Shown here piece by piece: positions 29,057-34,586 of a stretch of DNA of 34,586 nucleotides; the first letter of the stretch is position 1, and each line of letters starts with the position of its first letter. Source of the stretch: Waterburya agarophytonicola KI4. Its GTDB lineage: Bacteria > Cyanobacteriota > Cyanobacteriia > Cyanobacteriales > Xenococcaceae. The position numbers were made by a program, and so were the translations under genes. The notes under the pieces were generated by a model. That model was not told the origin of the DNA, did not search any database, and saw nothing but the letters and a program-made list of their open reading frames with translations. The stretch covers positions 1 through 34,586 of the forward strand of contig NZ_JADWDC010000051.1 in the NCBI RefSeq assembly GCF_020640915.1, given 5' to 3'.

Positions 29057-30940
29057 ATGTGTGGAATTGTTGGCTATATTGGCACTCAAGCAGCAACAGA
29101 AATATTAGTAGCAGGTTTAGAAAGATTAGAATACCGAGGTTATGATTCTGCGGGGGTGGCAACAGTTGATGAAGGAAAGATTAGTTGCGTTAAAGCCAAA
29201 GGGAAACTTTTTAATCTAAGAGCAAAAATAGAACAATCAGAATACAAAGGGCAATTAGGTATTGGGCATACTCGTTGGGCAACTCACGGAAAGCCAGAAG
29301 AACATAATGCCCATCCGCACTTAAATACCGATGGGACTTTAGCAGTAGTGCAAAATGGCATTATTGAAAACTACTTAGAACTAAAAGAAGAATTAGTTAG
29401 TAAGGGAATAGAATTTCGCTCAGAAACCGATACAGAAGTTATTCCTCATCTAATTTCCGTATTTTTGCATAGTTCTAGCTCGTTGATGGAAGCGATTCAA
29501 AAAACAATCGATAGATTGGAAGGTGCATTTGCGATCGCTGTAGTCCATGCCGAGAACCCTTACGAACTAATAGTAGCTCGCCAACAAGCCCCTTTAGTAT
29601 TAGGTTTTGGACAAGGAGAATTCTTCTGCGCTTCCGACACCACCGCCATCCTTCCCTACACCCGCACTATTCTTAACCTAGAAAACGGCGAAATAGCAAA
29701 ACTTACTCCTTTAGGAGTGGAAATGTATACCTTCTCAGGCGATCGCATTTCTCGCTTCCCCCGCACCCTAGATTGGAATCCCACCCAGGTAGAAAAACAA
29801 GGTTTCCGTCACTATATGCTCAAGGAGATCTACGAGCAACCTGCGGTAGTTAGAAGCAGTTTAGACACCTATATCAATCTTAATTGGCACGCGGACGAAA
29901 ATCCCGATTATAGCCCCGTCAATATCGGTTTAACTCCCGATATGACCGATAATTTAGAGCATATTCAAATCGTAGCTTGCGGTACTAGTTGGCACGCTGC
30001 ACTTGTAGGTAAATATCTCCTCGAACAAGTTGCAGGTATTCCCACCACCGTCGATTATGCTTCCGAGTTTCGCTACTCCCCCAAACCAGTGATTCCCAAC
30101 ACCCTAACCATTGGAGTTACCCAGTCAGGAGAAACAGCCGATACCATTGCAGCCCTAGAATCAGAAAGAGCAAGAAGAGTTAATTTAGATCCCAAATATC
30201 ACGCTCGATTACTGGCAATTACCAACCGCGCCGAAAGTACTATCGCTCAAATATGCGATTGCATTATCGACACCCAAGCAGGTATAGAAATCGGCGTAGC
30301 TGCCACTAAAACCTTTGTGGCACAAACTATGGGTTTCTACTTCTTAGCCTTAGATTTAGCTTATCGCCGTCAAGCAGTATCCAATCAACGGATCAGTGAA
30401 ATAGTTGAAGGGTTGCGCCAAATACCCAGTCAGATAGAAACCATTTTAGACACCCAAGCTGATGCGATCGAAGAATTGGCACACCACTTTACTAATGAGA
30501 CGGAAGACTTTATCTTTATTGGGCGGGGTATCAACTTCCCCATTGCCCTGGAAGGTGCATTAAAACTCAAAGAAATCTCTTACATCCATGCAGAGGCATA
30601 TCCCGCAGGGGAAATGAAACACGGACCGATCGCTTTACTGGATAATAAAGTACCAGTAGTAGCAGTCGCCATGCCTGGCAGCGTCTATGATAAGGTAATT
30701 TCTAATGCCCAGGAAGCCAAAGCTAGAGATGCTCGTTTAATTGGGGTAACTACTGCTATGAATGCCACGGAAGCAGGACATACTTTTGATGATATTTTAA
30801 CCGTACCGGAGGTAGATGAAATTGTTTCTCCTGTCTTGGCGGTTGTGCCTTTGCAGATCTTGTCTTACCACATTGCAGCGATTAAGGGGTTAGATGTGGA
30901 TCAGCCCAGAAATTTGGCGAAAAGTGTTACTGTTGAGTAA
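29057..30940 (+). CDS. glmS: Glutamine-fructose-6-phosphate aminotransferase GlmS
   Basis: Makes glucosamine-6-phosphate from fructose-6-phosphate and glutamine, the entry step to UDP-GlcNAc. The 627-aa protein has the N-terminal nucleophile Cys2 (MCGIVGYIG), glutaminase motifs RWATHGKP and QNGIIENY, and two SIS sugar-isomerase domains with ACGTSWHA, TQSGETADT and the C-terminal GMKHGP-type segment. The C-terminus DQPRNLAKSVTVE is the highly conserved part whose codons form the recognition site for TnsD of Tn7-like transposons. A Tn7-like end starts 23 bp after its stop. No terminator lies between glmS and that end, so readthrough into the element is possible. No glmS ribozyme was recognised upstream. 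Confidence 0.97.
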   Translation: MCGIVGYIGTQAATEILVAGLERLEYRGYDSAGVATVDEGKISCVKAKGKLFNLRAKIEQSEYKGQLGIGHTRWATHGKPEEHNAHPHLNTDGTLAVVQNGIIENYLELKEELVSKGIEFRSETDTEVIPHLISVFLHSSSSLMEAIQKTIDRLEGAFAIAVVHAENPYELIVARQQAPLVLGFGQGEFFCASDTTAILPYTRTILNLENGEIAKLTPLGVEMYTFSGDRISRFPRTLDWNPTQVEKQGFRHYMLKEIYEQPAVVRSSLDTYINLNWHADENPDYSPVNIGLTPDMTDNLEHIQIVACGTSWHAALVGKYLLEQVAGIPTTVDYASEFRYSPKPVIPNTLTIGVTQSGETADTIAALESERARRVNLDPKYHARLLAITNRAESTIAQICDCIIDTQAGIEIGVAATKTFVAQTMGFYFLALDLAYRRQAVSNQRISEIVEGLRQIPSQIETILDTQADAIEELAHHFTNETEDFIFIGRGINFPIALEGALKLKEISYIHAEAYPAGEMKHGPIALLDNKVPVVAVAMPGSVYDKVISNAQEAKARDARLIGVTTAMNATEAGHTFDDILTVPEVDEIVSPVLAVVPLQILSYHIAAIKGLDVDQPRNLAKSVTVE

Positions 30941-30963
30941 AATAACTGCTGTTTGCTAACTGT
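30881..30963 (+). other. attTn7-like target site at the 3-prime end of glmS
   Basis: The final glmS codons (PRNLAKSVTVE, TnsD recognition region in Tn7) plus 23 bp of spacer up to the element end. In Tn7 the insertion point is about 25 bp past glmS. If insertion makes a 5-bp duplication, as Tn7 does, the copy here is predicted to be ACTGT at 30959-30963, with its partner beyond the right edge of the window. Confidence 0.75.
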
Positions 30964-30971
30964 TGTGGAGT

Positions 30972-31040
30972 GACAATAAAGTTGGTAACTTTACAACAAA
31001 GTTAGTAACTTAAGAGAAATTAACAATAAAGTCAGTAACT
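30972..31040 (+). repeat. Three TnsB-binding-site-like direct repeats
   Basis: Repeats at 30972-30990, 30992-31010 and 31022-31040 share the pattern ACAAyAAAGTyrGTAACT. The first two are nearly contiguous and the third is 11 bp further. A weaker fourth copy may lie near 31048-31066. Tn7 TnsB sites share the GACAATAAAGT core and a conserved AACT end. The tnsA start is 43 bp past the third repeat, so TnsB binding here could also repress the tns operon. Confidence 0.82.
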
Positions 31041-31083
31041 GAAGCTGTACAATCATAGTAATCTTGTATTGTGCAGTTTTCTC

Positions 31084-31899
31084 ATGTCTAGAAGCAGATA
31101 CGATTGGACGACCGCTAAGTTTGAGCGGTATGTTAAGGAAGAACGAGGTAAGGGTAGAGGAAAATACTACAAGCCTTGGATAACTATTCAAGATTTTCCC
31201 TCTGTAGGAAGAGCATCGCGATCGCCTGGATGGAAAAGCGACCGTATCCATCATTTGATGTCAGATTGGGAATCAAGACTCTTCTATATATTTGAGTGGT
31301 GTCAGGAAGTACAAGATATCAGGGAGCAATATCCTCTACTAGATCTGGATTTGGCAATGGAAATTGCGAAAGAGATGGGAATTGAATATCCAGTAAATAG
31401 GAAAAGTAAGACACCCTATGTGTTGACTACTGATTTTATGTTGACAGTCCAACAGGGTAAGAAACCCGTTCAAATTGCTCGTACATTTAAAACTACTAAA
31501 GATCTTGGTAAGAAAAGAACCATCGAAAAATTGGAATTAGAGAGACGTTACTGGCAAAAGCACAATATTGATTGGGCGATCGTTACTGAACAGGAGATAT
31601 GTAAAATTTTTGCATCCAACATCCAATGGGTTCATCCTGATTACCATTGGAAATTATCGGAAGAGCAAAATAATGAAAACTGTTATTTCTTCAGCAACAT
31701 TCTCAAAGAAAGGTTGAATAGCAGAAAATTTAAAATTAGTACCATTACAACTACATTAGACAACGATATGGGTTTTGAGATTGGGACTTCTTTGTCTCTC
31801 TTTAAACATCTAATTGCTCGGCGAGAAATTATTGTAGATATGTTTCAGTCAAAAATAGCAGACCGTCTTGCAGCAAATATCATTAAAGAAATTATATAA
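31084..31899 (+). CDS. tnsA: TnsA transposon endonuclease
   Basis: A 271-aa homologue of Tn7 TnsA, the restriction-enzyme-like subunit that cuts the 5-prime ends of the element and, with TnsB, makes cut-and-paste transposition possible. Similarity is direct: YVKEERGKGRGKYYKPWITI matches the Tn7 N-terminus, followed by RIHHLMSDWESRLF, DIREQYPLL, TTDFMLT and KLELERRYWQKHNIDWAIVT. Catalytic Glu63, Asp117 and Lys136 are present (Tn7 Glu63, Asp114, Lys132). The residue two before the Lys is Thr, where Tn7 has Gln130. Start ATG 31084 gives Tn7-like length; an ATG at 31069 would add five residues. Its stop is 19 bp before tnsB. TnsA and TnsB are separate proteins here, not fused. Confidence 0.95.
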   Translation: MSRSRYDWTTAKFERYVKEERGKGRGKYYKPWITIQDFPSVGRASRSPGWKSDRIHHLMSDWESRLFYIFEWCQEVQDIREQYPLLDLDLAMEIAKEMGIEYPVNRKSKTPYVLTTDFMLTVQQGKKPVQIARTFKTTKDLGKKRTIEKLELERRYWQKHNIDWAIVTEQEICKIFASNIQWVHPDYHWKLSEEQNNENCYFFSNILKERLNSRKFKISTITTTLDNDMGFEIGTSLSLFKHLIARREIIVDMFQSKIADRLAANIIKEII

Positions 31900-31918
31900 A
31901 CAAGGTCGATTTTTACTA

Positions 31919-34165
31919 ATGCTATATGTTAATGATTTAGTTGAATGGGTTAATGATACAGAAGAAACAAAAGTTGAGAGAATAATTTGGATAGACGAAA
32001 ACTATGTCCTTGCTTTTGTCTTTGATATTAATACTAATAAAGGCGTACCTCATGCTAAAAGAATAAGTGAAATTGAAGATGCGATTGAAGAAGGCACGGC
32101 TATACAATTAAAGTCAGATCCTTGGTTGAGAATAGTCACGGAAGACAATTTATCTGAGAAAGAAATAGAAATTAGAGATAAAATTTGGAAAATTATCGCT
32201 CTTATAGTAGAACAAGAACCAGAAGTATACGATCGCAAGCTTAGAGGCTCTTTAGTTAATGAAGCGATCGCCAAATCTACAGATAAAATTGCCAAAAAAA
32301 CTATCTACGGTTATCTCCGAAAATATTGGCAAAGAGGAAAAACCAAAAACTCTTTGCTTCCCGACTATTCTAATTCAGGTGGCAAAGGTAAAACTAGAAA
32401 AGCTAGTAACAGTATCAAGCGTGGGCGACCAAGAAAGTATAAAAAAGTCGCAGAAATAGGTGAAGGAATCAATATAACAGAGGAAGACCTCAAAATTTTC
32501 AGAATTGCTATCTCCAAATTTTACAACAATCGTAAAGGCAACTTTTTAACTACCGCTTATGAATTAATGCTTAAAGACTACTACAGCGAAGAAACAGTAT
32601 ATGACGAGCGCGGAGTTAGAAAATCGGTATTAATTCCCCCAGATAAACGACCGACAATCAGGCAGTTTCGCTATTGGTACGACAAAGAGCATAAACCAGA
32701 TATCAAGAAAACTGTTAGTTCGAGAAGAGGAAGCAGAGCTTTTGCGCTAAAACATCGAGCCATTACAGCTACATCTAAACAAGAAACAATTGGTCCTGGT
32801 TCTCGCTATCAAATCGATGCCACAATAGCTGATGTTTATTTGGTTTCTAAATATAACCGTAACTGGATAATTGGCAGACCAGTCGTGTATCTAATCATTG
32901 ACGTATTTAGCCGAATGATTACAGGTGTATATGTTGGTTTAGAAGGACCTTCTTGGCTGGGAATGATGATGGCTTTGGTTAATGCAGCTACCGACAAAGT
33001 TAAATATTGTGCTGAGTACGGAATTGAAATTACTCCAAAACAGTGGCAAGTTCATCACGTACCAGAAGTAATTTTAGGCGATCGTGGAGAGTTAGCAGGA
33101 AAAAATGTGGAAACTTCGATTAATAACTTGGGAATTCGTATTGAAAATGCAGCACCCTATAGAGGAGATCAAAAAGGCATTGTTGAAAGACATTTTAAAA
33201 CCATGCACGGCAGGGTCAAACCATTTATTCCTGGTTACGTAGATGTCGATTTTACTCAAAGAGGAGGTAAAGATTATCGTTTGGATGGCAAGTTAAATTT
33301 AGACGAATTTACGAAAGCAATTATTTATTTAATATTAGAACATAACAACAATCACTATCTCAACGATTATCAGCGCGACACAGAAATGATTGTAGATGAT
33401 GTCGAAACCGTACCAAAAGAATTATGGCAATGGGGAATTGCTAATCGTTCGGGAAGATTAAAAACATTTCCTGAAGATATTGTCAAACTTAACCTAATGC
33501 CTTCGGGAAGAGCGACTATTACAGCTAAAGGTATTAAATTTAAAAAGCTTCACTATACCTGTGAAAAAGCAAGAAGAGAGCAGTGGTTTGAAAGAGCTAG
33601 AAGTGGAACGCTTGGCAAAAACCAAAAATATTTGGATATCTCATACGATCCCAGACAACCAGAATATATTTATATCCGTTCTTCTGATGGCAAAGATTAT
33701 GAAAAATGTTCGATAATCGATTTTGAAGCTAGATATACAGGCAAAACTTGGGAAGAGATAGAGTATTTACTAGTTTACGAGCAACTGCAAAAGCAGAAAT
33801 ATAAAGGGAAAGAAACACAAACCAAAGTCAATCTAATGGCAGAGTTTGAAAATATTGTCGAGCAAGCAACAGCTTCAACAGATGCCGTTCTAGATAAGAC
33901 TATAAGTAATAGTAAAAAAGTTAAAGGAATTAGAGATAATCGCGCATTTGAAAAGGAAAAGCGCAGAGAAGATGAAGCTTTTGAATTGAGTAAAGACGAA
34001 TTGCCTAGTTCTGTTGATCGGATAGAAGAGATATCTGAATCTAAACCAAAAACTGTGTCTGACAATACTTTATCTGACCAACCCAAACAAAAAACCAAAT
34101 CTTTCAAACGCAAAAAGTTAGAAGCATTAAAAAGAAACAGATTAAGAAGATCTATTGAAGACTAA
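31919..34165 (+). CDS. tnsB: TnsB transposase (DDE)
   Basis: A 748-aa Mu/Tn7-type transposase that binds the end repeats, cuts the 3-prime ends and joins them to target DNA. The catalytic triad is Asp300 (YQIDAT), Asp388 (LGDRGE) and Glu423 (GIVERHFK). The spacings of 88 and 35 residues equal those I recall for Tn7 TnsB. N-terminal DNA-binding segments include a GRPRK AT-hook-like motif near 170. The C-terminal about 120 residues are charged and Lys-rich (ending KKLEALKRNRLRRSIED) and should contact TnsC. The start chosen is ATG 31919 after the tnsA stop; an ATG at 31868 would overlap tnsA. tnsC starts 11 bp later. HIP1 is present near 32263. Confidence 0.95.
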   Translation: MLYVNDLVEWVNDTEETKVERIIWIDENYVLAFVFDINTNKGVPHAKRISEIEDAIEEGTAIQLKSDPWLRIVTEDNLSEKEIEIRDKIWKIIALIVEQEPEVYDRKLRGSLVNEAIAKSTDKIAKKTIYGYLRKYWQRGKTKNSLLPDYSNSGGKGKTRKASNSIKRGRPRKYKKVAEIGEGINITEEDLKIFRIAISKFYNNRKGNFLTTAYELMLKDYYSEETVYDERGVRKSVLIPPDKRPTIRQFRYWYDKEHKPDIKKTVSSRRGSRAFALKHRAITATSKQETIGPGSRYQIDATIADVYLVSKYNRNWIIGRPVVYLIIDVFSRMITGVYVGLEGPSWLGMMMALVNAATDKVKYCAEYGIEITPKQWQVHHVPEVILGDRGELAGKNVETSINNLGIRIENAAPYRGDQKGIVERHFKTMHGRVKPFIPGYVDVDFTQRGGKDYRLDGKLNLDEFTKAIIYLILEHNNNHYLNDYQRDTEMIVDDVETVPKELWQWGIANRSGRLKTFPEDIVKLNLMPSGRATITAKGIKFKKLHYTCEKARREQWFERARSGTLGKNQKYLDISYDPRQPEYIYIRSSDGKDYEKCSIIDFEARYTGKTWEEIEYLLVYEQLQKQKYKGKETQTKVNLMAEFENIVEQATASTDAVLDKTISNSKKVKGIRDNRAFEKEKRREDEAFELSKDELPSSVDRIEEISESKPKTVSDNTLSDQPKQKTKSFKRKKLEALKRNRLRRSIED

Positions 34166-34176
34166 TAAATTAAATT

Positions 34177-34566
34177 ATGGACACGATTGATATTCCAAAT
34201 GGCGTAGAAGCAACTGTAGCGGTATATCGCGACCACAAACTGCCTGAATATGCTGCTAATCCAATGATTCAAGCATTACCTCATTTGATGACTGAGGATG
34301 AATTTTTGGAATCTGTAATAGTGATGCCCAACTTCTCTCCTGAAGAAAAATTTTTGAAGCCTCATTTAAGAACTCATTGTGTTGAAAGATTATCCAGATA
34401 CTTCGATCCCATAAATAAAACTACGCAATTACATCAAGCCATTAGTGTCTTACTAATGCAGGGTTATTTAGCACGAAATATTCTTAAACCTCAATATGCT
34501 CGTCGTGCTAATCAAATTTATCAAGCAATTCAACCCACCTTCCGCACGTCAAAATGTATTATTTAG
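34177..34566 (+). CDS. tnsC: TnsC N-terminal region, frame closes early
   Basis: The frame encodes 129 residues matching the N-terminus of Tn7 TnsC, the AAA+ regulator linking target selection to TnsAB. The match includes AVYRDHKLPEYAANPMIQAL, then HLRTHCVERLSRYFDP, then LHQAISVLLMQGYLARN (Tn7: [34 protein letters not shown]). A full TnsC is about 550 aa. Here a stop at 34564-34566 falls before the Walker A loop expected some 25-35 residues later. One alternate frame, that of the ATG at 34554, is still open at the window end, so a frameshift near 34535-34550 could explain the break. The other alternate frame stops at about 34575. Either tnsC is inactivated, split, or carries a sequencing error. 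Confidence 0.85.
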   Translation: MDTIDIPNGVEATVAVYRDHKLPEYAANPMIQALPHLMTEDEFLESVIVMPNFSPEEKFLKPHLRTHCVERLSRYFDPINKTTQLHQAISVLLMQGYLARNILKPQYARRANQIYQAIQPTFRTSKCII

Positions 34567-34586
34567 AGTTTCATAAAATCAGTCAT

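Follow-up and report, generated by a model that had tools for sequence, protein, structure and literature searches.

AvCAST and Tn7743 are type I-B1 CRISPR-associated transposons (CASTs). In PMC11406308 this type is a close relative of Tn7 found in cyanobacteria only, in which TnsD leads to glmS and TniQ acts with Cascade; a TnsD of the glmS type is usual, but some I-B1 elements go without TnsD. According to PMC11406308 and PMC10293859, TnsA and TnsB act at the transposon ends, and TnsC connects them either to TnsD, for homing to glmS, or to TniQ with Cascade, for RNA-guided insertion. A working member of the family uses TnsA and TnsB to cut and join the ends and TnsC to link them to one of two target selectors: TnsD, which sends insertions to the 3' end of glmS, or another TniQ, shorter than TnsD and acting with a type I-B Cascade, which sends them to sites matched by a CRISPR RNA. 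A TnsA-TnsB fusion is assigned in PMC11406308 to types I-B2 and I-D, the I-B2 elements being described with fused TnsAB and a tRNA-targeting TnsD; the element studied here has, in contrast, separate TnsA and TnsB and lies at glmS.

The window, that is, the whole stretch of DNA analysed (34,586 nucleotides), is the entire contig C73 of the draft genome of Waterburya agarophytonicola KI4, a cyanobacterium of the Xenococcaceae (5.1 Mb in 149 contigs, with a stated completeness of 99.98%). Since the window is the whole of C73, the element can be traced only through other contigs. It is, with high confidence, the glmS-proximal end of a type I-B1 CAST that has since decayed. Its features are the following.

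29057..30940, plus strand: glmS, the host gene, with the attachment site on its 3' side (open reading frame of 627 aa, aligned in relatives)
30941..30963, no strand: spacer of 23 bp from the glmS stop to the transposon end (from the sequence)
30964..31040, plus strand: Tn7-type transposon end beginning TGT, with terminus TGTGGAGTGACAATAAAG from 30964 and three repeats (from the sequence and the similar ends of relatives)
30975-30990, 30995-31010 and 31025-31040: end repeats 1, 2 and 3, related to each other
31084..31899, plus strand: tnsA, 271 aa from ATG, intact (PF08722 and PF08721 above cut-off; PDB 1f1z)
31919..34165, plus strand: tnsB, 748 aa from ATG, intact (Tn7 TnsB, PDB 7pik)
34177..34533, plus strand: tnsC, codons 1-119 (the other part of the gene is at L005:53-1390, contig C20)
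34528..34533, no strand: ATTCAA, target-site duplication of an insertion sequence (IS) in tnsC (recurs at L005:53-58)
34534..34586, no strand: one end of an IS present in multiple copies, with inverted repeat CCCACCTTCCGCACGTCA; it breaks the contig (from its copies in the genome)

The insertion lies just downstream of glmS, as is expected of an I-B1 element. The initial annotation had placed a Tn7-type terminus 23 bp after the gene, and this was confirmed, the terminus beginning at 30964; its assignment to a cyanobacterial Tn7-like element inserted at attTn7 is supported by the 23-bp spacing, the structure of the end and the tns genes. Among the 33 loci with an aligned glmS end, a count that takes in the window and three further genomes, TGT is located 23-26 bp past the stop codon in 32, with L099 as the exception, and chance is therefore no issue for the glmS-adjacent end. 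Comparable ends start 25 bp after glmS in L068 and 24 bp after it in L069. The three repeats are probable TnsB sites, and the final five bases of the spacer, ACTGT, would correspond to the target duplication on this side, the partner of which was not found. Host DNA of the far side was looked for in the own genome with the 1.5 kb that follow glmS in G070, a genome of the same genus with no TnsB match at E 1e-60, and five short weak matches were obtained.

Separate TnsA and TnsB proteins of the Tn7 lineage are encoded next to this end, as indicated by Pfam and PDB matches and by the TnsB tree described below. The tnsA product matches Tn7 TnsA (PDB 1f1z) with E 2.2e-43. At its key positions the 24 cyanobacterial rows of the alignment, window included, hold E in 24, D in 23, T in 24 and K in 23. 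The window has T at the position of Tn7 Q130; T or S occupies it in all 39 rows that cover it, so that the substitution is typical of the group rather than a sign of damage. The tnsB product matches Tn7 TnsB (PDB 7pik) with E 1e-123, and D317, D405 and E440, in the numbering of an alignment of five sequences, are invariant in all five, with the spacing of the DDE triad of Tn7. The proposed succession of tnsA, tnsB and tnsC in Tn7 order holds as to the order and to the integrity of tnsA and tnsB; of tnsC, the window has only codons 1-119, after which the IS end begins.

The contig ends at position 34586 because its final 53 bp belong to one end of an IS that is present in multiple copies. They recur with 98-100% identity at six places (C140, C110, C148, C138, C125 and C96), and the inverted repeat CCCACCTTCCGCACGTCA is present at these and also at C16, C131 and C20. 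Contig C20 starts with the opposite end of the IS, followed by ATTCAA and then, in frame, by the rest of tnsC with its Walker A stretch; this second piece (L005:53-1390) matches Tn7 TnsC with E 1.1e-67. The junction is covered by both alignments in 17 loci of relatives; in 16 of them the overlap between the tnsC pieces is exactly 6 bp, and in L102 it is 9 bp. An overlap of 6 bp is what the target duplication predicts, and we therefore infer that C73 and C20 almost certainly join across one copy of the IS. The TnsC ATPase expected next to tnsB in an I-B1 element is, accordingly, present in two pieces split by that IS.

Past tnsC, C20 carries tniQ, cas6 and cas8, in this order. The short TniQ of RNA-guided targeting is encoded by a gene split by an IS with two open reading frames matching DUF4096 and DDE_Tnp_1 (IS4/5-type transposase); PF06527 is found in both halves, which were aligned to the 313-aa TniQ of L049. 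The cas6 product is recognized by TIGR02807 (E 3.9e-61) and the cas8a1 product by TIGR03485 (E 1.4e-90). The cas8 gene is cut near residue 339, close to L005:5083, by a multicopy sequence found also at a terminus of each of the contigs C38 and C119, and in the alignment with Cas8 of L069 it stops at residue 307 of 495. Of the type I-B (MYXAN-like) Cascade set cas6-cas8-cas7-cas5 that an I-B1 element would have, C20 thus supplies cas6 and a cut cas8. No cas3, cas1 or cas2 was found among the scanned proteins of C20 and C27, a further contig considered below. With Tn7 the element shares homologues of TnsA, TnsB and TnsC and the glmS site, and it differs in having tniQ, cas6 and cas8 after tnsC. 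Tn7 is not known to have a Cascade. Compared with type I-B1, as drawn from the family description of PMC11406308 rather than from the AvCAST sequence, the element is alike in its separate tnsA and tnsB, glmS site, type I-B Cascade genes (cas6 and a cut cas8), cyanobacterial host and Tn7-type end, and unlike in that tnsC, tniQ and cas8 are interrupted and cas7, cas5, an array, TnsD and the far end were not found.

Relatives were collected with a profile of five TnsB sequences, which gave 37 loci in named genomes, 20 cyanobacterial and 17 from Bacillota. Within the fetched stretch, glmS is present in 11 of the 17 Bacillota loci and in 18 of the 20 cyanobacterial loci; L073 and L077 are without it, so that members of the cyanobacterial clade do not always lie at glmS. 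Cas matches were found in 13 of the 20 cyanobacterial loci, some of the seven negative ones ending within or soon after the transposase genes, versus none of the 17 Bacillota loci. The full cyanobacterial order is glmS, end, tnsA, tnsB, tnsC, tniQ (about 313 aa), cas6, cas8, cas7 and cas5, with tnsD (about 446 aa) later. It is complete through tnsD in L049, L072, L076 and L097, and the stretch from tnsA to cas5 follows glmS in L049, L069, L072, L076 and L097 among others. In L049 an array is located between cas5 and tnsD; L077 has inverted cas genes, and L092 a short cas8 and no cas7 match. TnsB at E 1e-60 or better was found in 8 of 386 genomes drawn from the phylum, W. agarophytonicola KI4 being one of them. 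At a different locus, in Myxacorys californica WJT36-NPBG1 (L079, 10001-12756), a further tnsB, which is only partial, comes immediately after the tnsB that follows glmS; the fetched flank gave no cas matches.

The TnsB tree has 38 rows, since L100, L102 and L103 of the 41 loci (below 450 aa) were dropped. A branch with support of 100/100 parts the 22 cyanobacterial from the 16 Bacillota rows, several of the latter having long branches of which the program warns. The window pairs with L068, from a Xenococcaceae metagenome-assembled genome (MAG), and forms with L068, L069, L070 and L096 a clade of five, both with 100/100. The four Xenococcaceae MAG elements are like the window in TnsB clade and landing site, and the end sequence of L068 is nearly the same; they are unlike it in that each is damaged or cut in a different way. 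In L068 a deletion has removed the last part of tnsC and the first part of tniQ, in L069 tnsA is frameshifted, and L096 runs out at the edge of its contig. In L070 tnsC is frameshifted, cas8 and tnsD are both cut, and neither cas7 nor cas5 gave a match. The frameshifts of L069 and L070, both in metagenome assemblies, may be errors. The window adds a decayed I-B1 copy from the Xenococcaceae branch; of the five copies inspected there (window, L068, L069, L070 and L096), every one is damaged or cut short by the end of a contig. The known working of these transposons is left unchanged by it.

The guess that the element is a CAST with a Cascade module in its cargo, made from the first 3.6 kb of raw sequence, is supported by tniQ, cas6 and cas8 after tnsC on C20, as in the relatives, so that a CAST proved recognizable from that much sequence. 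Other parts named in the initial annotation did not turn up. For a second TniQ or glmS-type TnsD in the glmS-adjacent element, the TniQ-family search of the whole assembly returned two proteins only, one encoded by the split tniQ of C20 and the other by C27. An array in the element's own cargo was not found either, the search of the genome for the C27 repeat leading only to C27. A left end with matching repeats was missing from end, repeat and cluster searches of the genome: the 27-base end, with up to 3 mismatches, has one occurrence in the whole genome, and the 19-base repeat, with up to 3 mismatches, has 18 matches versus 10 for a reversed control pattern, 15 of the 18 falling outside the window on 15 different contigs. 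A search for repeat clusters in 102 partly overlapping entries of the own genome gave no further transposon end; it detects the known ends in the window, L068, L069 and L070 and misses the more divergent end of L049, so that a strongly diverged far end could escape detection. For a second cas7, the whole-assembly search with L069 Cas7 found only the Cas7 of C27 (44%); a family model scores these Cas7 proteins below its cut-off. In the part of the genome covered, cas5 was seen only on C27. The dual-pathway equipment of type I-B1 is incomplete here because a glmS-type TnsD, a second cas7, another array with the C27 repeat and the far end were not found.

Contig C27 (L004, 429-4578) carries tniQ, a CRISPR array, cas5, cas7 and a piece of cas8. 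The array, at L004 1537-2083, has eight 36-base repeats and seven spacers of 34-41 bases. Its TniQ matches that of PmcCAST, a type I-B2 CAST, with E 3.7e-98, and a TniQ of this kind with array, cas5, cas7 and cas8 is what an I-B2 element would bring. Identities to an element on a Gloeothece plasmid are 53% for TniQ, 53% for Cas7, 42% for Cas8 and 61% for Cas5; versus the I-B1 relative L049 there is no TniQ match, and the values are 47% for Cas7, 31-32% for Cas8 and 57% for Cas5. C27 is thus most likely the remnant of a separate type I-B2 CAST. The likeness between the glmS-adjacent element and type I-B2 (PmcCAST) consists in related Cascade proteins, the C27 element being itself of the I-B2 kind. 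No TnsAB fusion or tRNA-gene site was found on C27, and the protein in the transposase position of the Gloeothece plasmid element, a predicted transposase and at most a candidate TnsA-TnsB fusion, had no match in 87 stretches of the own genome (1.06 of 5.1 Mb). The best match of the seven spacers in the fetched own contigs (about one fifth of the genome) and the relatives has E 0.01 and 16 matching bases, and there was none in phage. Their sole plasmid match (E 4e-3) falls between tniQ and cas5 of the CAST-like Gloeothece plasmid element, at a site that shows C27-like repeats.

These findings bear on other readings of the locus. A plain Tn7-like transposon, homing through TnsD only and devoid of CRISPR parts, would resemble the Bacillota relatives, all 17 of which are without cas matches in the fetched flank, and would agree with the lack of a cas gene among the open reading frames at the end of the window; however, a short CAST-type tniQ, cas6 and cas8 come directly after tnsC on C20, which the shared target duplication joins to the window, and the reading is highly improbable. 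Another reading is that in the assembly, a draft of 149 contigs, the junction of glmS and transposon or the link to C20 is an artefact. This is extremely improbable, for glmS lies ahead of tnsA in 18 of 20 loci from other cyanobacterial genomes, and a proper inverted repeat together with a duplication of 6 bp is seen at the IS break.

The relation of C27 to the glmS-adjacent copy allows two further readings. C27 holds exactly the genes absent from C20, and both contigs break within cas8, as would be seen if C27 were the far half of the same element, which would then be nearly complete. The two cas8 pieces, however, overlap in model positions (2-293 for C20, 165-309 for C27) and differ in sequence, and the C27 proteins are closer to I-B2 (PmcCAST TniQ, Gloeothece element) than to the I-B1 locus L049, so that this is very unlikely. 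As the main reading, C27 continuing C20 was discarded for the two different overlapping cas8 sequences and the TniQ of I-B2 kind. Alternatively, the I-B1 copy at glmS, which keeps an intact TnsA, TnsB and right end, might use the TniQ and Cascade of C27, with the C27 array, in trans for its movement or targeting, or an IS might have fused the two elements into a hybrid CAST; two CAST types in one genome would then share parts, a prospect to which we give only a very slight chance.

For the preferred reading, a decayed I-B1 copy at glmS, a history can be proposed. Its arrival would most likely have been through a TnsD reading glmS, which position and distance fit. Its genes were broken later: tnsC by one IS after codon 119, tniQ by a different IS, and cas8 near residue 339 by yet another multicopy sequence. 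The part beyond this break (the end of cas8, cas7, cas5, array, TnsD and far end) would then have been lost by deletion, or be missing from the assembly or in its gaps. The glmS-adjacent copy is very probably immobile, and RNA-guided transposition by it unlikely, because tnsC, tniQ and cas8 are interrupted and TnsD was not found.

The least ordinary of the findings is that a single genome has remnants of both I-B1 and I-B2, and this genome can serve to study whether CASTs of these types keep each other out, take each other's place or assist each other. Among the titles and abstract openings covered no report of both CAST types in one genome was found, which is weak evidence. An apparent type I-B2 CAST with an array is located on Cy782202 (L194, 7718-16742), a conjugative plasmid of Gloeothece verrucosa PCC 7822. 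Its layout is like that of C27, with cas6, a 775-aa DNA-binding protein in the transposase position and an ATPase in addition; in the record the cas genes are named, one protein is assigned to the TniQ family, and those in the transposase and ATPase positions are given as DNA-binding and ATP-binding. At the start of C27 (L004, 2-346, minus strand) lies a fragment of a BrxE-like protein (PADLOC BrxE, E 2.3e-23), perhaps BREX defence cargo of the I-B2 element. Finally, at the edge of contig C99 (L015, 51-554) there is a short piece of tnsB, 82% identical to that of the window and adjoining a sequence, probably an IS end, that is also located at the end of C27; this piece is the trace of another I-B1-like copy.
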